A DNA stretch of 64,000 nucleotides from Streptomyces sp. SID12488 (lineage in GTDB: Bacteria > Actinomycetota > Actinomycetes > Streptomycetales > Streptomycetaceae), in NCBI RefSeq assembly GCF_010548275.1, contig NZ_JAAGLT010000028.1:1-64000 (forward strand), read 5' to 3'. Below, in pieces: positions 12,719-38,629 of this stretch. The notes under the pieces were generated by a model, which saw nothing but the letters and a program-made list of their open reading frames with translations, ran no database searches and was not told where the DNA came from. The translations under genes and the position numbers were made by a program. The number at the start of each line of letters is the position of its first letter. The first letter of the stretch is position 1.

Positions 12719-12740
12719 CTGGGGTGTCGACCGGGCGGCG

Positions 12741-14532: not shown

Positions 14533-14540
14533 CCACCCCA

Positions 14541-14585: not shown

Positions 14586-14589
14586 CCTT

Positions 14590-14637
14590 CGTGTCCGTAC
14601 TCGTACTCGTGTCTGCGTCTGCGTCCGTGTCCGTGTT
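14590..14637. repeat. Hexanucleotide tandem repeat
   Basis: Eight consecutive six-base units of the CGTGTC/CGTACT/TGCGTC type fill the gap between the kstD terminator and the TetR stop. It is a degenerate microsatellite with no evident coding role. Confidence 0.8.
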
Positions 14638-15245: not shown

Positions 15246-15303
15246 GTCGTCGGCCCCCCAGGTCGCATGTCGTCGAGTCTCCCCGCCGCGTCGCTCAGGA
15301 GGC

Positions 15304-16173
15304 TCAGGAGGCGTCCGGGCGGGTCAGGAAGGCCAGCACCGCGCTCTCCCAGGCCGCCTTCTGCTCGATCATGGCCCAGTGCCCGCAGTCGGGTAGGACG
15401 TGCAACTCGGCCCTGGGGATGGTGCGCATCGGCAGCAGCGCGTTGTCCAGCGGGGTGACCCGGTCGTCGCGGCCCCAGGTCAGCAGCGTGGGTGCGGTGA
15501 CCTTGTGGAGCGCCGCCCAGATGGGCTGGTCGGAGTGGGCCTGGGCGGCCATCATCGCGGCCATCGCCTGCCGGCCGTAGATCCGGCGGGACGCCTCCAG
15601 CGTCGCCGGGTCGGTGGCGCTCGCCCAGCGCTCCTCGATCAGTTCGTCGGTGAGGAGGGCGGGGTTGTGGACCATCGACCGCAGCCACTGCACGAGGTTC
15701 TCGCGGGTGGGGTTCTCGGTGAACTCCACCAGCAGGTTGAGCCCTTCGCTGGGCGCCGGCGAGAGGATGTTGCGGCCCACTCCCCCGATGGTCACGACCC
15801 TGCGGAACAGGTCCTTGTGGGCGACCGCGAGGCCCACGGCCACGTATCCGCCCATGGAGTTGCCGACGACGTCCACCTGGTCGAGCCCGAGGCCTTCGAG
15901 GAAGCGCAGTACGGCCTTCGGGGCCGCAGCCATCGGGTTCTCGTCGGTCGGGTCGCTCACGCCGAAGCCGGGGAACTCCAGGGCGAGGGTGCGGAAGTGC
16001 TGGGCGAACACGGGGAGGTTGCCCCGGTAGTTGCGCCAGCCGGTCACCCCGGGTCCCGACCCGTGCAGCAGGAGCAGCGGCGGTCCGTCGCCCGCCTCGT
16101 GGTAGCGCAACACGCCCTCGTCGGTGGGGAGTTCGCGCAGGGTGTTCTCGTACGTCAGGGAGGTGAGTGTCAT
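15304..16173 (-). CDS. hsaD: 4,5-9,10-diseco-steroid meta-cleavage product hydrolase
   Basis: A 289-residue alpha/beta hydrolase of the BphD/HsaD C-C bond hydrolase group. The oxyanion segment HGSGPGVTGWRNYRGNLP matches this group, the nucleophile is Ser106 in GNSMGG, and the Asp and His come in WGRDDRVTPLDNALL and LPDCGHWAMIEQ. It hydrolyses the ring-cleaved diseco-steroid made by HsaC. It is divergent from hsaC across a 159-bp gap holding motif III, and is followed by a TetR gene. The ATG at 16173 has a poor ribosome site. Confidence 0.92.
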   Translation of the reverse strand: MTLTSLTYENTLRELPTDEGVLRYHEAGDGPPLLLLHGSGPGVTGWRNYRGNLPVFAQHFRTLALEFPGFGVSDPTDENPMAAAPKAVLRFLEGLGLDQVDVVGNSMGGYVAVGLAVAHKDLFRRVVTIGGVGRNILSPAPSEGLNLLVEFTENPTRENLVQWLRSMVHNPALLTDELIEERWASATDPATLEASRRIYGRQAMAAMMAAQAHSDQPIWAALHKVTAPTLLTWGRDDRVTPLDNALLPMRTIPRAELHVLPDCGHWAMIEQKAAWESAVLAFLTRPDAS

Positions 16174-16215
16174 GGCAGCACCGTGCCACCGGGCAGTCTG
16201 CGCCCGTGGGTGGGC

Positions 16216-16230
16216 TCCCGATCAGTGGGA
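16216..16230. promoter_or_regulatory. Operator-like motif III, copy 3 (hsaC/hsaD divergent region)
   Basis: On the minus strand the site is TCCCACTGATCGGGA, which matches TTCCGCTGANCGGGA at 12 of 14 fixed positions. It is centred in the promoter region shared by hsaD and hsaC. Confidence 0.55.
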
Positions 16231-16332
16231 CGGTCCCGGCGGTGGGTGGCGCGGGCTGTCTAGCGTCGTGGACGTAGCGATGCCGGGGGCCCTCGGGCCG
16301 CCCGGACCTGATCAATGCGAGGGGAGGACCTG

Positions 16333-17205
16333 ATGGGTGTTCGCTCACTCGGGTACCTGCGTCTGGAGTCCAACGACATCGACAAGTGGAAGGCCTTCGG
16401 GGGCGACTTCCTCGGCCTGATGCCAGTCGAGGGCGGTGATCCCGAGTCCCTCCACTTCCGGATGGACGACTATCCGGCCCGCATCGTGGTCTCTCCGGGG
16501 GCCCAGCCCGGGATGACGGCGCTGGGCTTCGAGGTTCTCGACGAGCGGGAGCTGGCGGGGCTGGTCGCGGATGTCGAGAAGGCCGGCATCAAGGTGACGG
16601 CCGGCACCGAGGTCGAGGCCGCGGCGCGGAAGGTCACGGGCTTCGTCAAGTTCAACGACCCGGGTGGCAACCCGGTCGAGCTGTTCTACGGCACGACTCT
16701 CGACCATGTGCCGGTGCAGACCCCGCTGGTGTCGGAGTTCGTCACCGGCGACATGGGCTTCGGGCACGCCATCATCTCCGCCGAGGACGCCCGGGGCACG
16801 TTCGAGTTCTACGTCAACGTGCTGGGCTTCATCGAGCGGAACACCATGCGCTCACCGGGCGGCACGACCTGGTTCATGGGCTGCAACCCCCGTCACCACA
16901 CCCTCGGAGTGACGCCGATGCCCGGTCCGGGGCGGCTGCTGCACTTCATGGTCGAGGGCGCGACGCTGGACGACGTGGGGCGCGCGCTTGACCGGGCCGG
17001 GAAGTACGAGGTCCCGATGATGCACTCGCTGGGCAAGCACACCAACGACCACATGGTGTCGTTCTACGTCTGGTCACCGGAGAACTACGCCGTCGAGTTC
17101 GGCTGGAACGGCCTGAAGGTGCCCGAGCCGGTACCCGTCTACGAGATCACCGACGGCGCGTTCTGGGGCCACCACTTCACACCGCCGCCGATGCCGGGCG
17201 GCTGA
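16333..17205 (+). CDS. hsaC: 3,4-dihydroxy-9,10-secosteroid extradiol dioxygenase
   Basis: The protein has 290 residues from ATG 16333, five bases after GGGGAGG; an in-frame ATG at 16315 is less likely. It is a two-domain type I extradiol dioxygenase like BphC/HsaC. The Fe(II) ligands fit His145 (GHAII), His204 (LLHFMVE) and Glu255 (AVEFGWNG), and the acid-base histidines fit the NPRHHTLGV and HTNDHMVSFYV segments. In the steroid pathway it cleaves the catechol ring A of 3,4-DHSA. It is divergent from hsaD and ends at a long palindromic terminator. Confidence 0.93.
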   Translation: MGVRSLGYLRLESNDIDKWKAFGGDFLGLMPVEGGDPESLHFRMDDYPARIVVSPGAQPGMTALGFEVLDERELAGLVADVEKAGIKVTAGTEVEAAARKVTGFVKFNDPGGNPVELFYGTTLDHVPVQTPLVSEFVTGDMGFGHAIISAEDARGTFEFYVNVLGFIERNTMRSPGGTTWFMGCNPRHHTLGVTPMPGPGRLLHFMVEGATLDDVGRALDRAGKYEVPMMHSLGKHTNDHMVSFYVWSPENYAVEFGWNGLKVPEPVPVYEITDGAFWGHHFTPPPMPGG

Positions 17206-18322: not shown

Positions 18323-18583
18323 TCAGTTCTTCGAGTGGTCGGTCAGGTTCGTGGAGTTCGTAAAGTTCGTCGGGTTCGTCAGATCCTCAGCGGCCTCGCG
18401 CAGTGCGCGCAGCCGCCTCTGGAGGAGTTCGCGTTCGGCCTCGGCCTCGTCGTCCGCGCCGAGTTCGGCCAGGCGTACGTCCGTCTCGGCGATCTCCGTG
18501 AGGAGCCTGCCGTGGGCCTCCTCGCGGGTGAGCAGGTCCAGGTCGGTCCAGTCGGACCGCTCGGACTCCGGCCGCCTGCTCAT
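18323..18583 (-). CDS. Small coiled-coil hypothetical protein with TN-repeat tail
   Basis: The protein has 86 residues and its ATG overlaps the amidohydrolase stop by four bases, so expression is coupled. The centre is strongly charged and helical (LTREEAHGRLLTEIAETDVRL, then EAERELLQRRLRALREAAED) and could form a coiled coil. The C-terminus is a short repeat, TNPTNFTNSTNLT, coded by nine-base direct repeats near 18341-18382. I do not recognise the family. A role as partner of the amidohydrolase or SDR is only a guess from the operon. Confidence 0.7.
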   Translation of the reverse strand: MSRRPESERSDWTDLDLLTREEAHGRLLTEIAETDVRLAELGADDEAEAERELLQRRLRALREAAEDLTNPTNFTNSTNLTDHSKN

Positions 18584-19725
18584 GCGGGGAGGTTGTAGAG
18601 GCGGCGGGCGTTCAGCTCCACGATCTTGTGCACCTCGTCGTCCGGTACGTCGACGAGGACCTCGGCGGCGTAGGCGCGGCTCCCCGGCCAGTACGAGTCG
18701 GAGTGGGGGTAGTCGCACTCCCAGGTGATCTTGTCGACGCCGACGTGGTGGCGTACCTCGACGCCGAAGCGGTCGTCGATGAAGCAGCCGTGGAAGTGCT
18801 TGTGGAACAGCTCCGAGGGCCGCACGGTCTGGTTGACGTTCTGGTAGAAGCGGTGCCGCTCCCAGGTACCGTCACTGCGTTCCAGCAGGTACGGGATCCA
18901 GCCGATGCCACCCTCGGACAGCCCGATCTTCAGCTTGGGGTGCTTGTGGAGCACCGGGGAGAAGAGCAGGTCGGCGGTGGCGTACATGGCGTTGGTGCCG
19001 AACAGGGCGATCGTCACCGCGAACGGCGCCTCGTCGGCCGTTTTCGGCGCCTTGCCCGAGGTGCCGAAGTGCAGGCACAGGGGCATGTCGGTCTCCTCGG
19101 CCGCCGAGAACACCGGGTCCCAGTGGTCGGTGTGGAAGGAAGGCAGGCCGCGCGGGGCCGGGTTCTCCGGGAAGGAGATCGCCTTGGCGCCCTTGGCGGC
19201 GGTCCGGTGGATCTCGGCGACGCAGGCCTCGACGTCCCACAACGGCAGGATCACCAGGGGGATGAGCCGGCCGGGCGCGGTGGCGCACCACTCGTCGAGG
19301 ACGAAGTCGTTCCACGCCTGGACGCACAGCAGCGCGAGCCGACGGTCCCTGCCCTCCATGAAGACATGGCCCGAGAACCCCGGGAAGGACGGGAAGGACA
19401 ACGCCCCCCAGACCCCGTCGAGGTCCATGTCGCGCAGGCGGGCCTTCGGGTCGTAGCAGCCCGGGATCATCTCGTCGTAGCGCGTCGGTTCGAGGCCGAA
19501 CTCCTCGGGATTCTTGCCCGCCACCGCGTTGAGGCCGATGTAGGGGTAGATCCGGTCCTCGTAGACCCACACCTCGGCGGGGGCCTGACCCGCTCCGCGT
19601 GGCTGCTCGACGCTCCGGGGGCCCGCCTCCCGGTACTTCGCGGGCAGTCGGTCGGACCACAGCCGTGGGGGCTCGATCAGGTGGTCGTCGGTCGACAGCA
19701 ACTTCATCCATGGCTGCAACGGCAT
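18580..19725 (-). CDS. Amidohydrolase-2 family metal-dependent hydrolase
   Basis: The protein has 381 residues from ATG 19725. The start shows STDDHLIEPPRLW and the C-terminal half holds WECDYPHSDSYWPG, the metal-site motifs of the PF04909 family (ACMSD-like decarboxylases and hydrolases). It is first in an operon with the small coiled-coil protein, the mycofactocin SDR and the ferredoxin. A second member of the family is at 45869. The reaction could be hydrolysis or decarboxylation of a catabolic intermediate; the sequence alone does not tell which. Confidence 0.85.
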   Translation of the reverse strand: MPLQPWMKLLSTDDHLIEPPRLWSDRLPAKYREAGPRSVEQPRGAGQAPAEVWVYEDRIYPYIGLNAVAGKNPEEFGLEPTRYDEMIPGCYDPKARLRDMDLDGVWGALSFPSFPGFSGHVFMEGRDRRLALLCVQAWNDFVLDEWCATAPGRLIPLVILPLWDVEACVAEIHRTAAKGAKAISFPENPAPRGLPSFHTDHWDPVFSAAEETDMPLCLHFGTSGKAPKTADEAPFAVTIALFGTNAMYATADLLFSPVLHKHPKLKIGLSEGGIGWIPYLLERSDGTWERHRFYQNVNQTVRPSELFHKHFHGCFIDDRFGVEVRHHVGVDKITWECDYPHSDSYWPGSRAYAAEVLVDVPDDEVHKIVELNARRLYNLPA

Positions 19726-19773
19726 CCTTGCGCTCCCTCGGTCTCGGAGACTCTCCAGCATCGGCACATTGCG

Positions 19774-19790: not shown

Positions 19791-19900
19791 ACTCAGTGGA
19801 AGAAAAAGATGAAACCCCTTACTTCTCACGGATCATGGATGTGAGCCAGATCCCTCCATGGAGATTCAGGCTACTCTTTTATTCGATGGAAGGAGACCCC

Positions 19901-20786: not shown

Positions 20787-21779
20787 TCATGCCGCGCCTC
20801 CGCCCGTCATGTCGATGACCACCTTCCCGGTGGTCCGGCGTTCCGCGACGTCGGTCAGGGCGGCGGCCACGTCGGCGAGGGGGTGGACGCGGGAGACGAG
20901 CGGGCGCATCCCGTCGCGGACCATCCCGGCGAGCGCCCGGTCGCCGGCGGCAACCGCGTCCGGGGCGTACTGGCGCAGCATGCGGATCTCGAAGCCCCGT
21001 ACGACCGCGTCCTTGAGCAGGACCAGGTTCAGCGGGATCCGTGGGATCTTCCCGTCGGCGTAGCCCACGGTGACGAACCGGCCGCCCCGCCGCAGTGCTC
21101 GCAGGGCGGCCTCCGCGTGGTCGCCGCCCACCGGGTCGACGACGAGGTGGGCGCCCTCGCCGTCGGTCAGTTCACGGATCCGGGTCTTCAGGTCCTCGCG
21201 GACGTAGTCCACGCCCGCCACCGCCCCGAGTTTGCGTGCGACCGCCAGCCGCTCCTGACTCGACGCCGCCGCGACCACTCGCATCCCGAGCCTGGTCCCG
21301 ACGTCGACGGCCGCCGAGCCGACCCCACCCGCGGCACCGAGCACGGTCGCCCACTCCCCCGCCTCGCCCCGCCCGACGGTGGTCAGGGCGTGGTAGGCGG
21401 TCGCGTACGTCACGTGGAACGCGGCGGCGTGGACCATGTCGAGCCCCTCCGGGACCGGACGCAGACCGGACACGGGCACCACGACCTGCTCGGCGAAGGC
21501 GCCGGTCAGCACCGCCCCGGCCACGGGTGACCCCACCGGAGGTCCGGACACCCCGGGCCCCAGCGCGGCCACGACGCCGGCGAACTCGCTGCCCGGCGTG
21601 AACGGCAGGGGCGCGGGGACCTGGTAGCGGTCCGCCACGAGCAGTACGTCGGGGAAGTTGACGGCAGCGGCGTGCACCCGCACCAGCACCTCCCCCGGGC
21701 CGGGTTCGAGGTCACCGAGTTCGACGACACTCAGGCCGCCAGGGGGCCCGTACTCCGTACAGCATGCGGCTCTCATCAT
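20787..21779 (-). CDS. Quinone oxidoreductase-type NADPH-dependent MDR protein
   Basis: The protein has 330 residues from ATG 21779, which overlaps the stop of the preceding dehydrogenase gene. It is a zinc-free medium-chain dehydrogenase/reductase: the GroES-like half has AAAVNFPDVLLVADRYQ, and the cofactor half has WATVLGAAGGVGSAAVDVG. Members reduce quinones or 2-enoyl thioesters. It closes a four-gene beta-oxidation operon (20787-24978), so an enoyl-CoA or enone reductase role is plausible. Confidence 0.85.
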   Translation of the reverse strand: MMRAACCTEYGPPGGLSVVELGDLEPGPGEVLVRVHAAAVNFPDVLLVADRYQVPAPLPFTPGSEFAGVVAALGPGVSGPPVGSPVAGAVLTGAFAEQVVVPVSGLRPVPEGLDMVHAAAFHVTYATAYHALTTVGRGEAGEWATVLGAAGGVGSAAVDVGTRLGMRVVAAASSQERLAVARKLGAVAGVDYVREDLKTRIRELTDGEGAHLVVDPVGGDHAEAALRALRRGGRFVTVGYADGKIPRIPLNLVLLKDAVVRGFEIRMLRQYAPDAVAAGDRALAGMVRDGMRPLVSRVHPLADVAAALTDVAERRTTGKVVIDMTGGGAA

Positions 21780-22996
21780 CGTGTCCTCTCCGCAGGGGGC
21801 GCAGTGGGCATCGCCGGGTCCCGGGGCAGGCCCAGTACCTGTTCGGCGATGGTGTTGCGCTGGATCTCGGCGGTGCCCGCCCCGATGGACGAGGCCCGGG
21901 TGCGCAGGAAGCCCCACACCCAGCGCCCACGCTGGACGGCGTGCGGATCACGGCGCCCGAGGATGCCGTAGGCGCCCAGCAACTCCACGGCGAACTCGTG
22001 CAGTTCCTGTTCGAAGGTCACGATGAAGAGCCGTGACGTCGAGGACGCGGGCCCGGGCTCGCCCTTCGTCATGATGTCGGCGATGGTCCGCATCCCGGTC
22101 AGGCGCATGATCCGCACCCGGATCTCGAAGTCCGCGAGGCGGTCGCGCACCAGGGGGTCCGATGTCGCGCCGCGCTCGCGCGCCAGCTCGATCAGTTCGT
22201 CGAGGACGCGCCGGTACAGCGCCGCCTGGTTCATCGCGCCGGCCGCGCGTTCATGGCCGAGGCTGGTCCGTACGAGGGGCCAGCCGCCGTTCTCCGGGCC
22301 GATCCGGTCAGCCACCGGCACCCGTACGTCGTCGAAGAAGATCTCGCAGAAGTGCGCGTCGCCGGTCAGGTCCCGCAGCGGGCGCACGCTCACTCCCGGG
22401 GCGCGGGCGTCGATCAGCAGATAACTGATGCCGTCCTGGCGGGAGTCGGGCGGTCCCGTGCGGACCAGGGTGAAGAGGATGTCGGCGATGTCGGCCGAAC
22501 TGTTCCAGACCTTCTGCCCGTTGACGAGGTACACGGCACCCGAGTCGTCCGGTCCGCCGCCTTCCCGCCGGGCGGTCGTCCGCAGCGCGGGCAGGTCCGA
22601 GCCTGCCTCCGGTTCCGAATAGCCCTGCGCCCAGACGGAGTCGCCGCGCAGCATGGGGCGCAGGAAGCGCTCCTTCTGTTCGGGGGTGCCGTACTTGATG
22701 AGGGTCGGCGCCGCGATGCCGAGCCCGGTGCCGAGAGGTCCTGGCACCCGGGCTTTCGCGTACTCCTCTTGGTAGATCACCTGTTGGGCGAAGTCCAGCT
22801 CCATGCCGCCGTGTTCGCGCGGCCAGCTCGGACCGGCGTATCCGGCGTCGAACAGGGTGGCCAGCCATGCCTTCTGCCACGGGAGTCGCTCGGCGGGGTC
22901 CTTGGGGCGGCGGCCGGGGTGACGGTCCGCCAGGAAGGTTCGGAGGCGGGCTCTGAACTCCTTGTCGGTGAGCACCGCTTGGGCCGGCGAGGTCAC
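21776..22996 (-). CDS. Acyl-CoA dehydrogenase, FadE subfamily with non-canonical active-site motif
   Basis: The protein has 406 residues with the flavin-binding segment WAQGYSEPEAGSDLPAL and WNSSADIADILFTLVRT. The C-terminal motif is IGAGTAEIQRNTIAEQVLGLPR, where the usual glutamate before GT is alanine. Dehydrogenases of this group in mycobacterial steroid side-chain degradation act as alpha2beta2 heteromers, with the base supplied at another position or by the partner. It overlaps both neighbours by four bases (SDR upstream, quinone oxidoreductase downstream). Confidence 0.85.
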   Translation of the reverse strand: MTSPAQAVLTDKEFRARLRTFLADRHPGRRPKDPAERLPWQKAWLATLFDAGYAGPSWPREHGGMELDFAQQVIYQEEYAKARVPGPLGTGLGIAAPTLIKYGTPEQKERFLRPMLRGDSVWAQGYSEPEAGSDLPALRTTARREGGGPDDSGAVYLVNGQKVWNSSADIADILFTLVRTGPPDSRQDGISYLLIDARAPGVSVRPLRDLTGDAHFCEIFFDDVRVPVADRIGPENGGWPLVRTSLGHERAAGAMNQAALYRRVLDELIELARERGATSDPLVRDRLADFEIRVRIMRLTGMRTIADIMTKGEPGPASSTSRLFIVTFEQELHEFAVELLGAYGILGRRDPHAVQRGRWVWGFLRTRASSIGAGTAEIQRNTIAEQVLGLPRDPAMPTAPPAERTR

Positions 22997-23760
22997 CTCG
23001 GGGCCATGCGGATGGCGCCGTCGAGGCGGACGGTCTGGCCGTTGAGGTACGGGTTCTCCAGCATCTCGATGGCCAGGCGGGCGTAGTCGTCCGGGGTACC
23101 GAGCCGCTTGGGGTGCGGGACGGACGCGGCGAGTCCGTCGCGGATGTCCTCGCGGAGCCGGCCGAGCATGGGGGTGTCCATGACGCCCGGCGCGATGGTG
23201 TTCACCCGGATCTGCCAGCTGGCCAGATCACGGGCGGCGAGCAGGGTGATGCCGTGCACGCCCGCCTTGGCGGCGGTGTAGGAGGTCTGGCCGATCTGGC
23301 CGTCGAACGCGGCGACCGACGCGGTCAGGACCACCGCGCCGCGGTCGCCGTCGACGATGTCGTTGGCGGCGAGCCGGGCGGCGGCCAGCCGCAGCACGTT
23401 GTAGGTGCCGATCAGGTTGACCCGTACGACCTCGGCGAACGTGTCGAGTTCGCCGGGGTTTCGGTCGCGGTCGATGATCCGGGTGCGGTCGCCGCCACGG
23501 CCCGCGCAGTGCACGACGAAGCGCAGCGGGCCGAGTTCGGCGGCGGTGTCGAGGGCGGCGGCGACCGCGGCCTCGTCGGTGACGTCGGCGCGGACGAAGC
23601 GGGCGGCGTCACCGAGGTCAGCGACCGCCTTGACGCCCTGCTCCTCGGAGATGTCGGCGAGAACGACCTGGCCGCCACGCTCGATGATCCGGCGGGCGGT
23701 GGCCAGGCCGAGGCCGGAGGCACCTCCGGTGACCAGCGCCGATGAACCGTCGATGTTCAT
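22993..23760 (-). CDS. SDR, 3-hydroxyacyl-CoA dehydrogenase type II (HSD10-like)
   Basis: The protein has 255 residues from ATG 23760, with GAGGAG six bases upstream. It shows LVTGGASGLGLATARRI, a VHCAG strand, the active-site YTAAKAG and the tail NPYLNGQTVRLDGAIRMAPR. The sequence GAVVLTASVAAFDGQIGQTSY is typical of the 17-beta-HSD10/HADH2 group, which oxidises 3-hydroxyacyl-CoA and some hydroxysteroids with NAD. It lies in an operon between two acyl-CoA dehydrogenase genes. A close paralogue is at 51506. Confidence 0.88.
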   Translation of the reverse strand: MNIDGSSALVTGGASGLGLATARRIIERGGQVVLADISEEQGVKAVADLGDAARFVRADVTDEAAVAAALDTAAELGPLRFVVHCAGRGGDRTRIIDRDRNPGELDTFAEVVRVNLIGTYNVLRLAAARLAANDIVDGDRGAVVLTASVAAFDGQIGQTSYTAAKAGVHGITLLAARDLASWQIRVNTIAPGVMDTPMLGRLREDIRDGLAASVPHPKRLGTPDDYARLAIEMLENPYLNGQTVRLDGAIRMAPR

Positions 23761-23829
23761 TTCCCACTCCTCACGGGGCACTTCTTGAATGGGATTGCAT
23801 GGCAGTGCATGGGGTTGGGTGGGACGGGG

Positions 23830-24978
23830 TCACAGTCCCAGGGATTTACTGATGATGGTCTTCAGGACCTCGCTGGTGCCGCCGTAGATACGGGTCACCC
23901 TGGCGTCCGCGTACAGTCGCGCGATCGGTGATTCGAGGATGTAGCCGTAGCCGCCGTGCAGTTGGAGGCAGCGGTCGACGACTCGGCCCTGCGTCTCGGT
24001 GCAGAACAGCTTGGTCCTGGCCGCGTCGACGGGGCTCAGGTCGCCTGCGACGAGCGCCGTGATCGCCGCGTCCAGCAAAGCCTGTGCGGCCGTCACCTCG
24101 GTGTCCAGGGCGGCGAGTTCGAACTTCGTGTTCTGGAAGTGGGCGACCGGTTTCCCGAAGACGGTCCGGTCGCGTACGTAGGTGACGGTCAGGTCGATCG
24201 CGGCGCGGGCCTGGGCGACGGCGCCGACCGCGATGGCCAGCCGCTCCTGGGCCAGGTTGCGGCCGAGGAGGGAGAAGGCCGCGCCTTCCTCACCGAGCAG
24301 GTTGGCGGCGGGGACGCGGACGTCGGCGAAGGACAGCTCCACGGTGTCCTGGACCTGGAGGCCGATCTTCTCCAGCTTGCGCCCGACCTCGAACCCGGTC
24401 ATTCCCTTCTCCACCACCAGCAGGGACAGCCCGGCACGCCGGTTGTCCGGATCGGTGGCGGTGCGGGCCACAACGATCACCAGGTCGGCGTGGTGGCCGC
24501 CGGTGATGAACGTCTTCGCCCCGTTGAGGACGTAGTGGTCACCGTCGCGGACAGCTTTCGTCACGACGCCGGCCAGGTCCGAGCCGGTGCCGGGTTCGCT
24601 CATCGCGACCGCGGTGTACAGCTCGCCCGAGGCCAGCCCGGGGAACCAGCGGGCCCGCTGCTCGGCGTTGGCCAGCCCCGTGAAGTACGGGACGACCACG
24701 TCGAGATGGGTGCGCAGGCCGCCCAGTGTCACGCCGGCACGGGCGCACTCCTCCTGGATGACGACGTTGAAACGGTAGTCGTCCGAGCCGCCTCCGCCGT
24801 ACTCCTCGGGGATCGCCGTACCGATGATGCCGAGCTTGCCTAGTGCGGTGAACAACTCACGGGGGACGAGTGCGGCGCGGCGCCAGTCCTCGTACACCGG
24901 GAGCACGTCGCGGGCGATGAAGTCGCGGACCAGGAGACGGAAGTCCTCATGATCCTGTTCGAACAGGGTCCGGCGCAT
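23830..24978 (-). CDS. Acyl-CoA dehydrogenase (FadE13/long-chain or isovaleryl type)
   Basis: The protein has 382 residues from ATG 24978, with GGAGGAG upstream. The flavin motif is TAVAMSEPGTGSDLAG and the C-terminal HGGYGYILESPIARLYAD is intact. The EGT glutamate is replaced by glycine (RIYGGTSEVLKTIISK), but a glutamate in NLAQERLAIA sits where isovaleryl- and long-chain dehydrogenases keep their base. It is therefore probably active. It is first in the 20787-24978 operon, and its promoter carries a CGTATACT motif. Confidence 0.88.
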   Translation of the reverse strand: MRRTLFEQDHEDFRLLVRDFIARDVLPVYEDWRRAALVPRELFTALGKLGIIGTAIPEEYGGGGSDDYRFNVVIQEECARAGVTLGGLRTHLDVVVPYFTGLANAEQRARWFPGLASGELYTAVAMSEPGTGSDLAGVVTKAVRDGDHYVLNGAKTFITGGHHADLVIVVARTATDPDNRRAGLSLLVVEKGMTGFEVGRKLEKIGLQVQDTVELSFADVRVPAANLLGEEGAAFSLLGRNLAQERLAIAVGAVAQARAAIDLTVTYVRDRTVFGKPVAHFQNTKFELAALDTEVTAAQALLDAAITALVAGDLSPVDAARTKLFCTETQGRVVDRCLQLHGGYGYILESPIARLYADARVTRIYGGTSEVLKTIISKSLGL

Positions 24979-25004
24979 CACAGCTCCTCCAGTGGACCCT
25001 ATTC

Positions 25005-25012
25005 AGTATACG
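25005..25012 (-). promoter_or_regulatory. AGTRYACT-like motif over a -10 box (acyl-CoA dehydrogenase promoter)
   Basis: On the minus strand CGTATACT is followed by GAAT. TATACT is a good -10 for the 23830-24978 gene, 27 bases from its ATG. The site belongs to the AT-rich motif II family seen at 34128, 38613, 43767, 44639, 47336 and 50207. Confidence 0.5.
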
Positions 25013-25080
25013 TAATTGCCTCCCTCGGTCCAGAGTGATCCGGAAAGTGGCAGTACACAGCCATGCATGACTGCACCTTG

Positions 25081-26553
25081 TCAGTGCCACCAGGGAATGA
25101 GTGCATCCAAATGCCGCCCCATCCGGTGGCGGGCGACCCCCGCGTCGCCCTGCACGATGGCGTCGAGGATGCGCTGGTGCACGTGCTGGACCTCCTCGGC
25201 GGCCGTGTCGCCGGGCAGCGGGCGGTCGTGGCCGGAGGCGTGCCGGCGGAACAGTTCGGTGATGATGGAGAGGAAGAGCGACAGCACCGGATTGTCGGCC
25301 AGGGCGGCGAGTTCGGAGTGGAACAGGTCGGCCTTGCGGAGTTCGTCGGCCGGGCCCTCGGTGGGCCAGCGGACGGCCTTCGTGAGGCGTTCGACGACCT
25401 CGGTGTCGCCCCTGGCGTGCCGGGCGGTCACTCTGGCGATGATGCCGAGTTCGATGGCGTTGCGGACGATCCGCAGGTCCTCGGCCGTGACGCCCTGGTA
25501 TTCGAGGAAGAGGGCCATCGTGTCGATGCTGGCCTGCGGTTCCGGCGCGGTGACGACCAGTCCGCCGCCGGGGCCCCGGCGCATCCGCGCGACCGAGTGG
25601 TACTCCAGGAGCCGCACGGCCTCCCGCAGCACGGCCCGGCTGATGCCGTAGCGGGCCAGCAGATCGGCCTCCGAGCCGAGCACCATGCCGATCTGCCAGC
25701 CCCGCGCCGCGATGTCGTCGTGGATCCGGGCGGCCACCACTTCGGCGAGCTTGGCCCGCAGGCCCTCGACGAGTTCCGGCTCGATCACGTTCCCGGAGAT
25801 CCGCTGGCCGCGATGCACCCGGTGCTTCTCGATCCAGGCGGCGACCGACTCCAGGTGGGCGGTGAGTTCGGACTGCGCGCGGGCGCCGTCGTCGGCGATC
25901 ACGGCCTCTACGACCGCGCGGTGGGCCCGGTGCGAGGTCTCCTTCGCCGCATGCATCTCGGCCTTGGTGACCCGGCGGGAGGTGTGCGCGTACCGGGCGG
26001 TGAGGCGGGTGAGCACGTCGACGAACAGGTGCAGCACCGGGTTTCCCGACAGTTGCCCGAGCACCGGGTGCAGGGGGTCCTGCGAATGGACCGACGGATC
26101 GTCCCAGTGGGCGAGTTCGGCTTCGAGCGTGGCTCGGAGGGTGGCGATGCCCTCTTCGGTGATGCGGTCCGCGGCGAGGCCCGCGGCGATCGGTTCGAGG
26201 AGCCGGCGGGCCTGGAGCAGGTCGGTGACACTGGTGCCGACGTACTCGAGGTAGATCACCATGGCCCGGGTCGCCGGTCCCGCGTCGGGGGCGCAGACGA
26301 TCAGGCCGCCGTTCGGGCCGCGCCGCATCCGGGCGACCTGATGGTGCTCGACCAGCCGTACCGCCTCGCGCAGCACCGCACGGCTCACACCCAGCCGCTC
26401 CCGCAGGTCCACCTCGGAGCCCAGGGACTCGCCGACGGGCCAGCCCTGGCGGATCACGGTCGCCTCGATGCGGTGCGCGGTCTGTGCGGCCAGTTTGCCG
26501 ACCGGGACACCGGTCTCGCCGTCGGCGGGTTCGCGGTCGACGGCAGTCGCCAT
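25081..26553 (-). CDS. Tandem GntR/FadR regulator (two full wHTH-FCD units)
   Basis: The 490-residue protein holds two complete FadR-subfamily regulators in a row. The first winged helix is at about 19-88 with an FCD domain at 105-240; the second winged helix is at 264-337 with an FCD domain at 350-485. The two DNA-recognition segments are almost identical (SRAVLREAVRLVEHHQVARM and SRAVLREAVRLLEYHSVARM), so both should read a similar half-site. Single GntR proteins dimerise to do this. It sits between two beta-oxidation units and divergent from the dehydrogenase at 26769. GT-N2-AC in motif II fits a GntR-type operator, but the link is inference. Confidence 0.9.
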   Translation of the reverse strand: MATAVDREPADGETGVPVGKLAAQTAHRIEATVIRQGWPVGESLGSEVDLRERLGVSRAVLREAVRLVEHHQVARMRRGPNGGLIVCAPDAGPATRAMVIYLEYVGTSVTDLLQARRLLEPIAAGLAADRITEEGIATLRATLEAELAHWDDPSVHSQDPLHPVLGQLSGNPVLHLFVDVLTRLTARYAHTSRRVTKAEMHAAKETSHRAHRAVVEAVIADDGARAQSELTAHLESVAAWIEKHRVHRGQRISGNVIEPELVEGLRAKLAEVVAARIHDDIAARGWQIGMVLGSEADLLARYGISRAVLREAVRLLEYHSVARMRRGPGGGLVVTAPEPQASIDTMALFLEYQGVTAEDLRIVRNAIELGIIARVTARHARGDTEVVERLTKAVRWPTEGPADELRKADLFHSELAALADNPVLSLFLSIITELFRRHASGHDRPLPGDTAAEEVQHVHQRILDAIVQGDAGVARHRMGRHLDALIPWWH

Positions 26554-26713
26554 GGGGCCAACTCCTCAGCGGGGATATTGCGGATCCCCAGTCTATTCGT
26601 CGGTGGCGCGGGTGACGTGCGAGGCGGGTGCCTGACGCCGAGATCGGATCGGCGTTTCCCGTTCTGCTCCTGGTCTCCGGAGGTCTCTGGCGAGAGACAT
26701 TCAGCACGGTTAG

Positions 26714-26721
26714 AGTACCCT
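26714..26721 (+). promoter_or_regulatory. Degenerate AGTRYACT-type site before the dehydrogenase gene
   Basis: TTAGAGTACCCTCATTT in the 215-bp gap between the tandem GntR gene and the divergent dehydrogenase gene resembles motif II. It lies about 50 bases before ATG 26769. Confidence 0.35.
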
Positions 26722-26768
26722 CATTTCGAGATCGTGCGCATGACGACGACGTTGAGGAGCCGGCAGCG

Positions 26769-27965
26769 ATGCGACTGGAGTCCACCCCCGAACTCGAGGC
26801 GTTCCGGAGGAAGGTGCGGGCCTTCGTCGCCGAGCACGCGCCCGGCGTCAAGACCCACTCCGGTGTGCGCGCCCCGGAGCCGGAACTGATGCCGGAAATC
26901 CGGGAGTGGACCGCGAAGCTGTACGGGGCGGGCTTCCTCGGCGTCGACTGGCCCACCGAGTACGGCGGCCGGCCCGACTCCCACCCCCTCGAACCGTTCG
27001 TCGTCGCCGAGGAGATCGCCCGCGCCCGCACCTGGCCGCCCGTCGGTGCGGCCTCGCTGGCCTCGGGTGCCCTGCTCGACTTCGGCACCGACGAGCAGCG
27101 TGCTCGCTTCCTGCCCCGCATCCGGGCTTGCGAGGACGTGTGGTGCCAGCTGTTCAGTGAACCGGAGGCGGGGAGTGATCTGGCCTCGCTGCGGACCCGG
27201 GCGCGCCGGGAGGGCGGGGCCGACGGCGACGGCGCCGTGTTCGTCGTCGACGGTCAGAAGGTGTGGACGACCAACGGTCAACATGCCGACATGGGATACC
27301 TGTTGGCGCGCACCGACGGGGACGCGCCCAAGCACAAGGGCATCACCGCGTTCGCGCTGGACATGCGCAGCCCGGGGGTCGACATCCGGCCGCTGCGCGA
27401 GATCACCGGGACCACCGACTTCAACGAGGTCTTCCTCGACGGCGTCCGGATTCCGGCCGCGAACGTCATCGGCCGGGTGAACGACGGCTGGCGGGTGGCG
27501 ATGAGCAGCCTCGGGCGTGAGCGTTCCGGAGTGGCCGCGCGCGGCGCCGAGTTGTCCGCCGTACTGGACGACCTGGTGCGGCTCGCGGAGGAGACGCCGG
27601 TCGGCGGCCGGCCCGCGCTGGAGGACTCCGCCACCCGGCAGACGATCGGGGAGCTGGCGGCTCGGGTGCAGGTGAACGCGGCGATGATCTCGCTGGCGCA
27701 GTCGCGGATGCTGCACGGTACGGAGGGGGTGGGGGACGCCCTGCTGGGCAAGATCTTCTTCAGTGAACTCAACCATGATCTGGCCGAGTTCGGGCTGCGG
27801 CTGCAAGGGACTGACGGGTTGCTCGTCGAGGGCGACGCGGGAGTTGTGGCGGGTGGGTGGTGGCAGGACGCGCATCTGTACTCGCGGGCGTACACCATTG
27901 CTGGTGGGGCCAACGAGGTTTTGCGTACGCAGGTTGCTGAGCGAGGGCTTGGGTTGCCTCGCTAG
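26769..27965 (+). CDS. Acyl-CoA dehydrogenase, FadE subfamily lacking the canonical base
   Basis: The protein has 398 residues from ATG 26769, nine bases after GAGGAG. It shows the N-terminal FLGVDWPTEYGG, the flavin motif WCQLFSEPEAGSDLASLR and WTTNGQHADMGYLLART. The C-terminus is SRAYTIAGGANEVLRTQVAERGLGLPR, with glycine and alanine replacing the EGT motif. This resembles FadE17/FadE28-type subunits of mycobacterial heteromeric dehydrogenases. It is a single gene divergent from the tandem GntR regulator, and is followed by the intergenic repeat. Confidence 0.85.
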   Translation: MRLESTPELEAFRRKVRAFVAEHAPGVKTHSGVRAPEPELMPEIREWTAKLYGAGFLGVDWPTEYGGRPDSHPLEPFVVAEEIARARTWPPVGAASLASGALLDFGTDEQRARFLPRIRACEDVWCQLFSEPEAGSDLASLRTRARREGGADGDGAVFVVDGQKVWTTNGQHADMGYLLARTDGDAPKHKGITAFALDMRSPGVDIRPLREITGTTDFNEVFLDGVRIPAANVIGRVNDGWRVAMSSLGRERSGVAARGAELSAVLDDLVRLAEETPVGGRPALEDSATRQTIGELAARVQVNAAMISLAQSRMLHGTEGVGDALLGKIFFSELNHDLAEFGLRLQGTDGLLVEGDAGVVAGGWWQDAHLYSRAYTIAGGANEVLRTQVAERGLGLPR

Positions 27966-29251: not shown

Positions 29252-30403
29252 TCAGTCGGTCGGGAGTTGCGCTGCGGCACCGCTGTCCAGCAGCGCTTCG
29301 ATGCCGTCGACCTGCCAGTCCCTGAACACGGCGCGGGTGTCCGCGCCGACCGCAGGCGCTGTGGTCGCGGGGCAGGTCGGGGTGTCCGAGAAGCGTGGTG
29401 CGGCGGCCGGCTGGACGACACCGTCCGGTGCGGTCAGGGTGGAGCGGGCGGCCAGGTGGGGGTGGGCTGCCGCCTCGGTGAGGCTCAGGACGGGGGCCAC
29501 GCACGCGTCGGTGCCCTCGAACAGGGCCGCCCACTCGTCGCGGGTGCGCTCCGCGAACCGTTTCTCCAGCAGTTGCCGCAGCTGCGGCCAGGTCGAGCGG
29601 TCGTGCTGCCGGTCCGGGTCGACGCCCAGGTCGAGCAGCTCGACCAGGCGCCGGTAGAACTTGCGCTCCAGCGCGCCGACCGCCACATGGCGGCCGTCCC
29701 GGGTCTCGTACACGGAGTAGAAGGGCCAGCCTCCGTCGAAGCGGTTGACCCCGCGCTCGTCGTTCCACTCGCCCCGCCCGAGCTTGCCGAAGGTGCTGGC
29801 GAGGAGGTGGGCGGTGCCGTCGACGATGGCTGCGTCCACGACCTGGCCCCTGCCTGTGCGCGCGGCGGCGTGCAGGGCGGCCAGGATGCCGATCACGAGA
29901 TAGCAGCCGCCACCCCCGAAGTCGCCGACGAGGTTGAGCGGGATGCGCGGCGGGCCGCCCTCCTCCCCGATCGCGCCCAGAGCGCCCGTCAGCGCGATGT
30001 AGGTGATGTCGTGTCCGGCGGCGGCGGCCAGCGGACCGTCCTGGCCCCAGCCGGTCATCCGGCCGTAGACCAGGCGGGCGTTGCGGGCCAGGCAGTCGTG
30101 CGGCCCGATGCCCAGCCGTTCGGTGACACCGGGGCGGAATCCCTCGGTCAACACGTCGGCCCGCTCGACGAGTTGGAGGAGCGCGGCGGCTCCGGCCGGG
30201 TGCTTCAGGTCGAGTACGACCGACCGTTTCCCCCGGTTGAGTACGTCCGCCGGTCCACCCGCGTCCGGTTCGTCCGCCCGACCGGGCCGGTCCACCCTGA
30301 CGACCTCCGCCCCGAGGTCGGCGAGCAGCATCCCGGCGAACGGCCCCGGTCCGATGCCACCGAGTTCGACGACCCGGCAGCCGACGAGAGGTCCCGTCGT
30401 CAT
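29252..30403 (-). CDS. CaiB/BaiF family, alpha-methylacyl-CoA racemase-like
   Basis: The protein has 383 residues from ATG 30403, behind GGGAGGG. It is a family III CoA enzyme with the racemase pattern: catalytic His in AAGHDITYIALTGAL and Asp in NLVGDFGGGGCYLVIG. The N-terminus VVELGGIGPGPFAGMLLADLGAEVVRVDR is typical. An alpha-methylacyl-CoA racemase would interconvert 2R and 2S methyl branches, as needed for sterol or isoprenoid side chains before dehydrogenation. It is followed by the thiolase gene and preceded by an 85-bp gap that may hold a promoter. Confidence 0.85.
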   Translation of the reverse strand: MTTGPLVGCRVVELGGIGPGPFAGMLLADLGAEVVRVDRPGRADEPDAGGPADVLNRGKRSVVLDLKHPAGAAALLQLVERADVLTEGFRPGVTERLGIGPHDCLARNARLVYGRMTGWGQDGPLAAAAGHDITYIALTGALGAIGEEGGPPRIPLNLVGDFGGGGCYLVIGILAALHAAARTGRGQVVDAAIVDGTAHLLASTFGKLGRGEWNDERGVNRFDGGWPFYSVYETRDGRHVAVGALERKFYRRLVELLDLGVDPDRQHDRSTWPQLRQLLEKRFAERTRDEWAALFEGTDACVAPVLSLTEAAAHPHLAARSTLTAPDGVVQPAAAPRFSDTPTCPATTAPAVGADTRAVFRDWQVDGIEALLDSGAAAQLPTD

Positions 30404-30488
30404 GGTCACCCTCCCAGCCCAGTTCAATTTGCGCACGATTACGGATACTCAATTCCGAGCACTTGATTTCGTACCGAGTACGCCGGTG

Positions 30489-31255: not shown

Positions 31256-32581
31256 CTACCTCCGCGAATCGTTCAACTGATCGCCGGTCACGGCGAATTG
31301 GGCCAGTTCATGGGCGACCATGCCGTCCAGGTCCTCGGCCGGCGGTGCCGGGAGGTCGACCGCACGATCGCGGGTCGGCAGCAGGACGACGGCCGTTCCG
31401 GGCGTGGTCACCTCACCGCGCTGGTTCTCGCACCGCACCTCGATGTGCACCTCGGCCCGCCCGTCCACCCGCCGTTTGTCTACGACCGTGCCGCGTGCCC
31501 AGGTGGTGTCGCCGAGATAGTTGAACTTGCGGTGCTCGCAGCGCAGTTTCCACAGCCAGCCGTCGTCGCCGATCCAGTCGGTGAGCAGATGGCACAGCCA
31601 GGTCTCACGCATCCCGCCGTAGTCGTACGAGTTCGGCAGCCCGAGTTCCTTCGCCCGCTCGGGTTCCCAGTGCAGCCGCTGCACGGTGTCCGGGATGTTC
31701 AACGGGTTCGGCGGATACAGTCCCGGCACCTTGCGCCGGACACGCGCGGCGATCCCGAAGGCCCCCGGCGGGGTGAGCTGCATACCCCAGCCCAGATGCC
31801 AGACGACCACGTCCGTGGTGGTGAGCGGCCCCTTCACGCGGGGCTGGAGTTCGTCGCCGATCTCGACGTCCTCCCAGAAGCGGGGTTCGGCGCCGCGCCG
31901 GGTCTCGGCCGCGTAGGCGGCGTCTATCTCGGCGAGTTGGTCGGCAGTGTAGGGCTCCTGCGCCAGGTGTTCCTTGGCGCGCTTCTTCGACGTGTGCCGT
32001 TCGGCGTTGATCCAGGTGCCCCGCCGCAGGGCGTGCATCTCGCCCCGCCCGTTGGCGTAGAGGTAGTCGCGGACGACGTGTGCCGTGCGCCCGCCGAAGC
32101 TGCTGCGCTTGAGATGGACGCCCACCTGGGTCTGCAACACCCGGCATCTGTCGCCCACTTGAAGCGGGCGCCACCACTCGAACTCCATCACCGCCTGGTA
32201 GGAACCGAGTCCGGCGAAGGGGTCGCCCTTCAGCAGCGCCTTCGTCTCCGGGTCCGGCTTCGGGGCGGCGTCCTCCCCCATCGTGTAGAGGAACGTGGGT
32301 GGTGCGACGAGCGAGCCCCAGCGGGTGCGGGCCGCGTGGTCCGGGTCGCAGTACAGGGGGTTGGCGTCGCCGTAGCCGTACGCGAAGTGGCGTACGCCGT
32401 CCCAGGTCACCTCGTAGTTGTGCGGGGGGTTGTGCTGGGGCTGGGGAACGCCCAGGCGGCACCGGGAACGCTCGACCGCCTCGTCCGTCAGCACGCCGAA
32501 CCGCTCGGCGGCTTTCTCCTGCGTACCCGTCTGCGCATCCGACTGGGTTTCCGTCTTGGTGTCCATCTGGGGGCCGGTCAC
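31256..32581 (-). CDS. MaoC-like (double hot-dog) acyl-CoA hydratase
   Basis: The protein has 441 residues from GTG 32581, which overlaps the ligase stop. Two hot-dog units are apparent: an N-terminal FAS1-like dehydratase part (about 40-215, including FAYGYGDANPLYCDP and GSLVAPPTFLYTMG) and a C-terminal part (about 235-430). Such fused MaoC enzymes hydrate bulky enoyl-CoAs in sterol side-chain degradation. The first 25 residues are a hydrophilic TQ-rich leader. With a crotonase next door, the operon has two hydratase types. Confidence 0.82.
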   Translation of the reverse strand: MTGPQMDTKTETQSDAQTGTQEKAAERFGVLTDEAVERSRCRLGVPQPQHNPPHNYEVTWDGVRHFAYGYGDANPLYCDPDHAARTRWGSLVAPPTFLYTMGEDAAPKPDPETKALLKGDPFAGLGSYQAVMEFEWWRPLQVGDRCRVLQTQVGVHLKRSSFGGRTAHVVRDYLYANGRGEMHALRRGTWINAERHTSKKRAKEHLAQEPYTADQLAEIDAAYAAETRRGAEPRFWEDVEIGDELQPRVKGPLTTTDVVVWHLGWGMQLTPPGAFGIAARVRRKVPGLYPPNPLNIPDTVQRLHWEPERAKELGLPNSYDYGGMRETWLCHLLTDWIGDDGWLWKLRCEHRKFNYLGDTTWARGTVVDKRRVDGRAEVHIEVRCENQRGEVTTPGTAVVLLPTRDRAVDLPAPPAEDLDGMVAHELAQFAVTGDQLNDSRR

Positions 32582-34092
32582 CGCTGCTCCTCCTTGACGC
32601 GCTCCTGTTGTGCGAGCCGGACGCGGACCAGTTCCAGCAGATCCACGCGGCTGACCTTGCTCGACGGGGTCCGGGGCAGCGCGTCGACGACGACGATGTG
32701 CGCCGGCACCTCGTACGGGGTGAGCCGGGACCGGCAGAGGGCGACGAGTTCGGCGGTGTCCGGGACCGGCAGGTCAGGCTCGGTCTCGACCGCCGCGACC
32801 GGTATCTCGCCGAGCCTCGGGTCCGGCAGGCCGGCGACGGCCGCCTCGCGGACGGCCGGGTGGGTCTCCAGGACGCGTCGGACAGTCTCCGGCTGCACCT
32901 TGAAGCCGCCGCGGATGATGGCGTCGTCCGTGCGGCCCTCGATCCAGACGAACCCGTCGGCGTCGATCCGGGCGAGATCGCTGGTCCGCGTCCAGGCCCG
33001 GCCGCCCCGGGTGCTCTGCTCGGTGCGGACCTCCAGGGTGCCGGGCCTGCCGACGGGCAGCTCGACGTGGTCCTCGCCGGTCACTCTCAGTTCGACACCG
33101 GCGAAGGCGCGGCCTGCGCTGCCCGCTTTCCGCTGCCACCAGCGCTCGTGCAGCGGCAGCGTCCATCCGGCCACCGCTCCGGCGAACTCGGTGGCCCCGT
33201 AGGTCATGAGGACGGGGATGCCGTACGTATGGAAGAACGCGTCGGCGAGTTCCGCCGGGCAGGGCGCGGTTCCGGACGTGACGACCTGGAGGCTCGCCAG
33301 CCGCTCCTGCGGGACGCCCGCGTCGAGTACGGCGCGGATGGCGGCCGGTACCAGGCTCGCCGCACGCAACCGGTGGCGCTCCACGGCGCCCACCCAGGGT
33401 TCGACGGCAAACCTGGGCATGAGAAGCATGCGGCGACCGGTGGCGAGACAGGCGAGTGCCCGCCACAGGCCGCTGATGTGCACGAGCGGGGTGGCCACGA
33501 GCGCCGCCGACCTCGACAGCATCCGCGCGTCCTTCGGGGTCTGGCCGCCGGAGGCGAGGGCCTGTTCCAACTGTCCGATGCGCAGGTGCACGCGTTTCGG
33601 AGGGCCGGTGGTGCCCGAGGTGAGCATCTCCACGGCGACGTCGAGGCCGGCTGCGGGTGCCCCGGCGGACGGTGTGCCGCCCGCGAGCCTGATGGTGCCG
33701 TCGGCGCCTGCCTCCAGGGCCGCGCCGCGACCTGTCACCGTACCCAACACGCCCTCGCGGGACAGGACTTCGGCGCCGGCGACGACGACGGGCGGTTCAC
33801 AGCGCGCGATGTCGGCGGCGAGGCGCGCGGCAGGCTGCAAGGGGCTCAGCATCACCAGGCAGCGCCCGGAGGCGATCACCGCGGCGACCACGGCCACGTG
33901 CTCGGGCCTGTTCTCCAGGACGACGCCGACGCGGCCACCGGCGGGCAGCCCCAGCGCGTCGAGCACGTCGACGACATCACGCGCGGTCGCCTGGATCTGC
34001 CCCCAGGTCCACCAGTCGCCCTCGTACTCGATCGCCTCGGCGTTGGCCGGTGCCTCGGTCAGTAGCCGGGACAGGCGGTCGCGAATTCCCAC
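32578..34092 (-). CDS. Acyl-CoA synthetase (AMP-forming), variant
   Basis: The 504-residue ANL-superfamily enzyme has P-loop EMLTSGTTGPPKRVHLR, then MTYGATEFAG, the hinge-side RTSDLARIDADGFVWIEGRTDD and a C-terminal RTPSSKVSR. It is somewhat diverged: the usual YGxTE is YGATE, and the acyl-binding region is short. ATG 34092 follows GGGAGGAG. It is first in a ligase-MaoC-crotonase operon. An AGTACACT site lies 36 bases upstream. Confidence 0.85.
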   Translation of the reverse strand: MGIRDRLSRLLTEAPANAEAIEYEGDWWTWGQIQATARDVVDVLDALGLPAGGRVGVVLENRPEHVAVVAAVIASGRCLVMLSPLQPAARLAADIARCEPPVVVAGAEVLSREGVLGTVTGRGAALEAGADGTIRLAGGTPSAGAPAAGLDVAVEMLTSGTTGPPKRVHLRIGQLEQALASGGQTPKDARMLSRSAALVATPLVHISGLWRALACLATGRRMLLMPRFAVEPWVGAVERHRLRAASLVPAAIRAVLDAGVPQERLASLQVVTSGTAPCPAELADAFFHTYGIPVLMTYGATEFAGAVAGWTLPLHERWWQRKAGSAGRAFAGVELRVTGEDHVELPVGRPGTLEVRTEQSTRGGRAWTRTSDLARIDADGFVWIEGRTDDAIIRGGFKVQPETVRRVLETHPAVREAAVAGLPDPRLGEIPVAAVETEPDLPVPDTAELVALCRSRLTPYEVPAHIVVVDALPRTPSSKVSRVDLLELVRVRLAQQERVKEEQR

Positions 34093-34127
34093 GGGAGGAG
34101 CCTTTCGTCACCAGATCAGAGCGATAA

Positions 34128-34135
34128 AGTACACT
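34128..34135. promoter_or_regulatory. Motif II site (AGTACACT) before the ligase operon
   Basis: AAAGTACACTGAAT lies between the CoA ligase start and the next operon end. On the minus strand the overlapping TACTTT could be part of a -10. The rest of the 178-bp gap shows no gene. Confidence 0.5.
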
Positions 34136-34270
34136 GAATTAGCGAACACCAGGTCACGGATTCCCATATTTTCCGCCCAAAGTGACGAGATCTATGCAAT
34201 TCAGTGACCTGAACTTGCGGTGCGGAGACCCACGAAGGCCGTGCCGGGGGCCGTCGCACCTGGGGCCGTT

Positions 34271-38620: not shown

Positions 38621-38629
38621 GTTTTCGTC

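Follow-up and report, generated by a model that had tools for sequence, protein, structure and literature searches.

In a 64,000-nt stretch of Streptomyces sp. SID12488 DNA (hereafter the window), we found a gene for a regulator that carries two complete GntR wHTH plus FCD units on one chain. The protein is probably a covalent pseudo-dimer of an FCD-type GntR repressor that fills one operator. FadR-subfamily GntR regulators such as PdhR and NanR work as dimers or higher oligomers. Here the N- and C-terminal wHTHs of one chain would occupy the two half-sites of one AWWNAGTAYACTNWWT palindrome, and one polypeptide would do what its single-unit relatives would do as a homodimer. The palindromic motif clusters beside the tandem gene in several genera.

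Two complete GntR-FCD units in one chain

The tandem gene is an ORF of 490 codons on the minus strand without an internal stop. Pfam matched the 490-aa chain with PF00392 (GntR) in two stretches (56.3 bits against a cut-off of 27) and with PF07729 (FCD) in two stretches (99 bits against a cut-off of 24.3). This bears out the first-pass annotation, which had described a fusion of two whole GntR-FCD regulators, and departs from the FadR-subfamily layout of one unit per chain. No WYL domain was called, as Pfam gave only FCD, GntR and a sub-cut-off Rrf2. The same annotation had noted near-identical recognition helices beside more divergent ligand domains. In the alignment, 12 of the 14 recognition-helix residues are indeed identical between the halves (0.86), with 62% identity for the wHTHs and 30% for the FCDs. 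Across 83 family sequences (80 loci, the window protein, L035 and L040), the median N/C identity is 59% for the wHTH, 33% for the FCD and 79% for the recognition helix.

AlphaFold models of the window protein (64-row alignment) and of a Mycobacterium member (62-row alignment) reached pLDDT values of 84.7 and 89.2 and pTM values of 0.85 and 0.89, respectively. The pTM values indicate a confident relative placement of the two halves, which fits a packed pseudo-dimer. Both halves match FCD-GntR chains in structure libraries (for example 6az6, DhdR, NanR and CGL2915); no solved tandem was among the structure-library matches listed, the best of which were GntR-type chains covering one half each.

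The tandem layout arose by internal duplication-fusion

We searched for other proteins of the same layout by a scan of genome contigs, with one genome per species. The scan returned 124 relatives, and the best 80 of the 124 were kept. All 80 span both halves and belong to named actinomycete loci, found in Streptomyces, Nocardia, Pseudonocardia, Amycolatopsis, Saccharopolyspora, Actinophytocola, Mycobacterium, Actinomadura, Rhodococcus, Frankia, Modestobacter and others. A stop or frameshift between the halves was looked for and found neither in the window nor in any of the 80 kept loci, each of which reads without interruption for 458-514 codons from the start of the match to the stop. A sequencing error, a chance fusion or a local assembly accident is thereby ruled out.

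The tandem layout is a minority feature among genomes. At the cut-offs used, matches occurred in five of 297 family genomes, nine of 391 order genomes and nine of 396 phylum genomes, the own genome being included each time. Two of the nine matches in the phylum set (G550 and G708) are single-unit proteins, and the same set holds tandems from outside the class (G616 and G897). For the own genome, 30 FCD matches were listed; of these, the tandem frame alone shows two whole FCDs, and two further listed pieces, both on contig C127, belong to a single FCD. Some genomes hold more than one tandem-family gene. Three Actinomadura loci (L088, L091 and L097) have two adjoining ones, with a Pfam check in L088; Amycolatopsis acidicola has a second near the first (L058 14675-16051); Nocardia jiangxiensis, N. 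macrotermitis and Pseudonocardia parietis have two tandem loci each; and G897 has three tandems.

In a tree of 26 representative pairs and 18 own-genome single-regulator rows (17 of them different, from 28 FCD loci examined), the N halves formed one clade (98/88), the C halves another (100/98) and the two together a joint group (100/99). Sister N and C clades in the main family point to one old duplication-fusion before the family spread. A separate fusion in each lineage is ruled out by these clades for the main family, the deepest members standing apart. The main-family N and C clades were recovered again (94/86 and 100/99) in a wider tree, which combined 17 of the 26 representatives with four deep tandems, four close single-unit relatives and two outgroup rows. 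Three of the four singles branched outside the tandems at modest support (93/77, 89/68). The tree gave no resolved placement for the fourth single or for the deepest tandems (L125, L126, L129 and L130), and as the latter do not separate into an N and a C clade, there may have been more than one fusion. The tandem protein is an internal duplication-fusion, and a single event suffices for the main actinomycete family.

A palindrome precedes operons of the surrounding degradation cluster

By Pfam, the window is a degradation cluster with acyl-CoA dehydrogenases, SDRs, a thiolase, CoA-transferases, an enoyl-CoA hydratase, AMP-forming ligases and a P450. The 4-hydroxy-2-oxovalerate aldolase and the acetaldehyde dehydrogenase pass the NCBIfam cut-off, which the HsaC- and HsaD-like genes do not reach. 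Phylogenetic footprinting around the tandem gene revealed conserved blocks with GTATACT. The pattern GTATACTSAWT, taken from these footprints, occurs five times in the window with at most one mismatch, against 0.12 expected, and none of 100 shuffles reached five. The palindrome AWWNAGTAYACTNWWT precedes many operons of the surrounding CoA-thioester/ring-degradation cluster, which is a new observation here. As a predicted operator it is compatible in sequence with the GntR consensus NyGTNxACNy given in the available excerpt of PMC4494728.

A PWM built from seven window sites and covering both strands gave 12 window places of at least 15 bits, compared with a mean of 0.4 in 10 Markov sequences, and five of the 12 are non-training sites (Table 1). 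By our own ORF calling, a gene start lies at most 200 bp downstream of all 12 sites, and three of the sites fall inside a called ORF. In the 9.6-Mb genome, a pattern taken from the window sites (at most one mismatch) occurs at 11 places, eight of them in the window; this concentration is partly by construction because the motif was trained there, and the independent tests are other genomes and loci. A backward-read control pattern gave three rows in the own genome, and the 27 single-FCD loci of that genome yielded one PWM match, at 13.1 bits.

The tandem protein may well act as a repressor of the CoA-thioester/ring-degradation operons around it and regulate its own gene, because the predicted operators lie shortly before start codons, overlap by eye a -10-like TATACT and include one in the gene's own divergent promoter. 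A separate block, AATAGACTGGGGATCC, lies upstream of 26553; it is very conserved before the tandem gene in Streptomyces, differs from the operator motif and is probably the tandem gene's promoter. The meta-cleavage genes at 9789-17205 (aldolase, acetaldehyde dehydrogenase, HsaC-/HsaD-like) carry no site of at least 15 bits, and this stretch may be governed by the PcaR/PcaU-like regulator (8812-9621) and the regulator at 14637-15245 that is TetR-like by eye.

Table 1. Positions in the window of the tandem regulator, its domains, neighbouring genes and predicted operators.
Feature	Position	Strand	Basis
Tandem GntR-FCD/GntR-FCD regulator, 490 aa	25081-26553	-	Pfam; 80/80 kept homologous loci intact (best 80 of 124)
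First wHTH (GntR), residues 20-90	26284-26496	-	Pfam, AlphaFold model
First FCD sensor domain, residues 100-242	25828-26256	-	Pfam, alignment, AlphaFold model
Linker, residues 243-266	25756-25827	-	Model confidence low (249-266 under 50); weakly conserved
Second wHTH (GntR), residues 267-338	25540-25755	-	Pfam, AlphaFold model
Second FCD sensor domain, residues 348-486	25096-25512	-	Pfam, alignment, AlphaFold model
Acyl-CoA dehydrogenase 3' of tandem gene	23830-24981	-	Pfam
SDR, then second acyl-CoA dehydrogenase, after 23830-24981	22993-23781; 21776-22996	-	Pfam
Divergent acyl-CoA dehydrogenase	26769-27965	+	Pfam; start inferred
Other regulator, PcaR/PcaU-like	8812-9621		
Other regulators, TetR-like	14637-15245; 2364-3155		By eye
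Weaker predicted operator upstream of amidohydrolase-family gene 18580-19767 (-)	19864-19879	+	PWM 15.7, non-training
Predicted operator before acyl-CoA dehydrogenase 23830-24981	25001-25016	-	Streptomyces-conserved block; PWM 30.5, training; genome pattern
Predicted operator, divergent promoter of tandem gene/acyl-CoA dehydrogenase (start 26769, inferred)	26710-26725	+	PWM 19.3, training; Streptomyces-conserved; outside genome pattern
Predicted operator before CoA-transferase 29252-30436	30438-30453	+	PWM 25.9, training; genome pattern
Predicted operator before AMP-forming ligase 32578-34092	34124-34139	+	PWM 27.9, training; genome pattern
Predicted operator before CoA-transferase 37282-38514	38609-38624	+	PWM 32.5, training; genome pattern
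Weaker second site before CoA-transferase 37282-38514, 53 bp from 38609-38624	38556-38571		PWM 11.5
Predicted operator between ORFs 43402-43713 (-) and 43841-44614 (+)	43763-43778	+	PWM 28.3, training; genome pattern
Predicted operator before LLM-class-oxidoreductase-like 44702-45763 (below NCBIfam cut-offs)	44635-44650	+	PWM 15.6, non-training; genome pattern
Predicted operator, divergent promoter of 45869-47146 (-)/aldehyde-dehydrogenase-like 47351-48829 (+)	47237-47252	-	PWM 23.0, training; genome pattern
Second predicted operator of 45869-47146/47351-48829 promoter, 95 bp away	47332-47347	+	PWM 22.9, non-training; genome pattern
Predicted operator, divergent promoter of 49027-50199 (-; thiolase-like by eye)/50330-51460 (+; acyl-CoA-dehydrogenase-like by eye)	50203-50218	+	PWM 16.7, non-training
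Second predicted operator of 49027-50199/50330-51460 promoter, 107 bp away	50310-50325	+	PWM 16.8, non-training

The motif accompanies the tandem gene in other genera

The 14 carrier genomes (own included) contain 69 motif places, 51 of them within 50 kb of the tandem gene, and 20 genomes without a match at the cut-offs contain 20 places in all (by our count). With the PWM unchanged, a site of at least 20 bits was present at 59 of the 80 tandem loci (best 80 of 124) versus none of 400 Markov sequences; for Mycobacterium the count was 31 of 31 loci and for Streptomyces 14 of 14. At least 15 bits were reached in 67 of the 80 loci, against 13 of the 400 Markov sequences, and at least 13 bits in 70. 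The other 13 of these 80 loci have no site of at least 15 bits, and two carriers (G436 and G130) have no motif place near the tandem gene; divergent members must therefore have other operators.

In Mycobacterium, one site lies before the thiolase-like gene preceding the tandem gene and the other before a large acyl-CoA dehydrogenase, the two operators being about 2.7 kb apart. The conserved block in each case is one 16-18 bp palindrome, present in 31 and 27 of the 31 loci, and its flanks are conserved as well: a CACG lies just ahead of the first palindrome, and the second is followed by a GC-rich inverted repeat. Mycobacterium and Streptomyces loci have in common the tandem gene and two SDR groups, and two of the Streptomyces loci share the thiolase-like group as well. 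Close relatives of the other window regulators were absent among the mycobacterial neighbours (best match, 27 bits). The mycobacterial operators (L079-L119), which occupy two promoters only, mostly have one asymmetric core, AGTACACT, in common, and relative to the genes it is oriented alike in both promoters. A fused chain whose wHTHs are unequal could read a site of this kind in one direction. A protein with MEDS and HATPase domains follows the tandem gene in many Mycobacterium loci (cluster 11, 21 loci; L081 9518-10564, Pfam in L081); it is possibly a second signalling layer.

Unfused proteins provide a further comparison. Two single-unit relatives from other classes, L142 (21.4 bits) and L143 (13.7 bits), have the motif in the promoter shared with a divergent SDR-like gene, and two others, L159 and L161, have no motif site. 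The motif beside two single-unit relatives is most simply read as one palindrome being recognised by homodimer and fused chain alike. We think it likely that both wHTHs of one chain would sit on one AWWNAGTAYACTNWWT palindrome, which the single-palindrome footprint and the pTM values fit. The claim of the first-pass annotation that a chain could bind a palindromic site alone is very probably right for the single chain, given that both wHTHs are constrained (pN/pS 0.060/0.104, see below), that the predicted operator is a single palindrome found beside two of the four single-unit relatives, and that pTM is 0.85/0.89. The word 'alone' may be incomplete, as phased operator pairs suggest two chains at some promoters.

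Paired operators tend to be helically phased

We defined operator pairs as two operators at most 300 bp apart and compared their centre distances with DNA turns. The 26 groups of paired operators gave R 0.56 at 10.5 bp. The test was conceived after the spacings had been seen, and the groups lack full independence (a site in L105 belongs to two of them). When the spacing was limited to 150 bp (23 groups), random spacings reached the observed best R in one of 5000 draws. When both sites had at least 13 bits (nine groups), R was 0.79 at 10.5 bp, and its best value was likewise reached in one of 5000 draws. At 10.8-11 bp, R exceeds its value at 10.5 bp, and out-of-phase pairs exist (0.67 for L088 at 49 bp and for L081 at 91 bp). 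Helically phased pairs suggest contact or cooperation between two chains, and chains on two operators, mostly 53-120 bp apart, may plausibly touch on one DNA face.

The same phasing would also be expected if tandem chains formed an obligate dimer, that is, a pseudo-tetramer in which the FCDs pair, two palindromes are bridged and the DNA is looped. Precedent exists in Atu1419, a tetrameric FCD GntR whose looping of two palindromes is described in the accessible part of PMC7797058. We consider this reading unlikely, though it survives better than the other alternatives, because the mycobacterial promoters have one strong site each (31 and 27 of 31 loci), which could still loop across some 2.7 kb, and several window promoters also have a single strong site. 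A single chain filling one operator, with contact between chains where operators are paired, is the reading we prefer.

Both sensor domains retain metal-site histidines

In the first FCD, His162, His211 and His233 are kept in 83, 82 and 81 of the 83 sequences, respectively, and the acid Asp/Glu159 in 80. The second FCD keeps His412, His459 and His481 in 83, 83 and 80 sequences, and the acid beside them is poorly conserved (Asp409, in 40 of 83 only). By sequence alignment, these correspond to the metal-holding FCD histidines of TM0439 and Ps5454, and E. coli FadR is without the triad, according to the available passages of PMC7674646. Loss of ligand residues in one FCD was thus looked for, and the metal-site histidines proved to be kept in both halves.

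The first-pass annotation had pictured a single-chain FadR that senses two different acyl-CoAs with AND/OR logic. Two inputs are possible because both sensor domains are retained and diverged, and the regulated operons do handle CoA thioesters. An acyl-CoA ligand is unsupported because Pfam called FCD and no FadR_C domain in the tandem protein, because the fatty-acid FadR model TIGR02812 (fadR_gamma equivalog) scored 21.3 bits against a cut-off of 249.2, and because both halves have the His triad that E. coli FadR lacks in the cited passages. We therefore regard the acyl-CoA version as distinctly unlikely. Each FCD might instead form a metal-assisted pocket that takes up an intermediate of the pathway (a carboxylate or derivative), and filling of one or both pockets might release the DNA. 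The two effectors, or their affinities, may differ because the pockets diverge.

Both halves are constrained and the motif follows the tandem gene

Among 12 Streptomyces comparisons (the 12 equal-length relatives of 14 supplied, two of other length being left out), pN/pS was 0.060 for wHTH-N and 0.104 for wHTH-C, and 0.172 for FCD-N and 0.154 for FCD-C. Both halves are held by purifying selection, the wHTHs more strongly than the FCDs. Over the 83 sequences, recognition-helix and wing residues are also largely kept in both halves. This pattern speaks against the idea that one half works and the other wHTH (or FCD) is a relic or structural part, the protein being an ordinary GntR-like homodimer formed through its N- or C-halves. 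Such an arrangement could draw on the differences between the wHTHs (N81 versus G329 and R51 versus L299) and on the non-conserved acid of the C half, yet with all four domains constrained it is very unlikely.

The palindrome could also belong to another regulator of the cluster (8812-9621, 14637-15245 or 2364-3155) or be a promoter element, with the tandem protein controlling something else. Those regulator genes do sit in the same cluster, and the TATACT in the sites resembles a -10 by eye. Against this, the motif hardly occurs elsewhere in the own genome (three of the 11 places) or in the 20 genomes without a match. It accompanies the tandem gene in Mycobacterium, whereas the best mycobacterial match to any other regulator of the window is 27 bits, and it stands beside two single-unit relatives in other classes, with a GT-N2-AC core of the GntR kind in terms of the excerpt of PMC4494728. 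We judge the whole alternative very improbable, and ownership by another window regulator appears unlikely. A general promoter element is ruled out by the three own-genome places outside the window and the 20 places in the 20 matchless genomes. We infer that the tandem protein, rather than another regulator, binds the AWWNAGTAYACTNWWT motif.

Comparison with known systems

Like PdhR, LldR/CGL2915, NanR, DgoR and DhdR of the FadR subfamily, each half of the tandem protein is one complete unit by Pfam and fold, with a predicted palindromic operator of GT..AC core and the His triad of the FCD metal site. The listed regulators have one unit per chain, the solved chains having about 220-265 residues, whereas the tandem protein has two. 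The single units are therefore ordinary FCD-GntR. We found no description of a tandem GntR-FCD regulator in the open-licence literature, where the fused architecture is apparently undescribed; the genes are in public genomes.

The mycobacterial tandem loci have an acyl-CoA dehydrogenase upstream and a P450 nearby. They resemble the M. tuberculosis order Rv3061c (fadE22)-Rv3060c-cyp136, in which Rv3060c is annotated as a FadR-type GntR and probably has about 490 aa. The available part of PMC2018728 pairs Rv3060c with MSMEG_5201, listed as 254 aa, and that of PMC4535907 calls Rv3060c a FadR that probably regulates isocitrate lyase; the architecture of Rv3060c is not described in the literature passages that name it. 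As a tentative broader picture, a widespread actinobacterial repressor family, probably including Rv3060c, may have arisen when fusion converted a homodimer into an obligate heterodimer with two pockets. A single chain would then serve one palindrome, diverged metal-containing pockets would sense two pathway intermediates, and pairs of chains would lock phased operators.

A homodimeric repressor detects one signal through two equal pockets, and a conserved single-chain version with diverged pockets contrasts with it. With their predicted operator, the tandem proteins lend themselves to two questions: can a fused repressor combine two signals, and how much symmetry does an operator still need when the halves of the dimer are covalently joined? 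They also supply a testable operator and regulon for a type of regulator that many mycobacteria have; the unfused relatives, of which two retain that operator, can serve as control.

Two published systems come closest in part. Atu1419 shares the FCD fold, and its four wHTHs bridging two palindromes are a model for the phased pairs; it differs in having four separate chains and 10-bp palindromes and in belonging to the VanR group, as far as the accessible part of PMC7797058 tells. PafBC is likewise actinobacterial and can hold two homologous HTH-sensor units in one chain, being naturally fused in Arthrobacter aurescens and others and encoded by two separate genes in most actinobacteria. It differs from the tandem protein in its WYL sensor domains, its role as an activator of DNA-damage genes and its non-palindromic motif (from the available passages of PMC6789036). 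By analogy, and in another family, PafBC is the best precedent for the tandem architecture.
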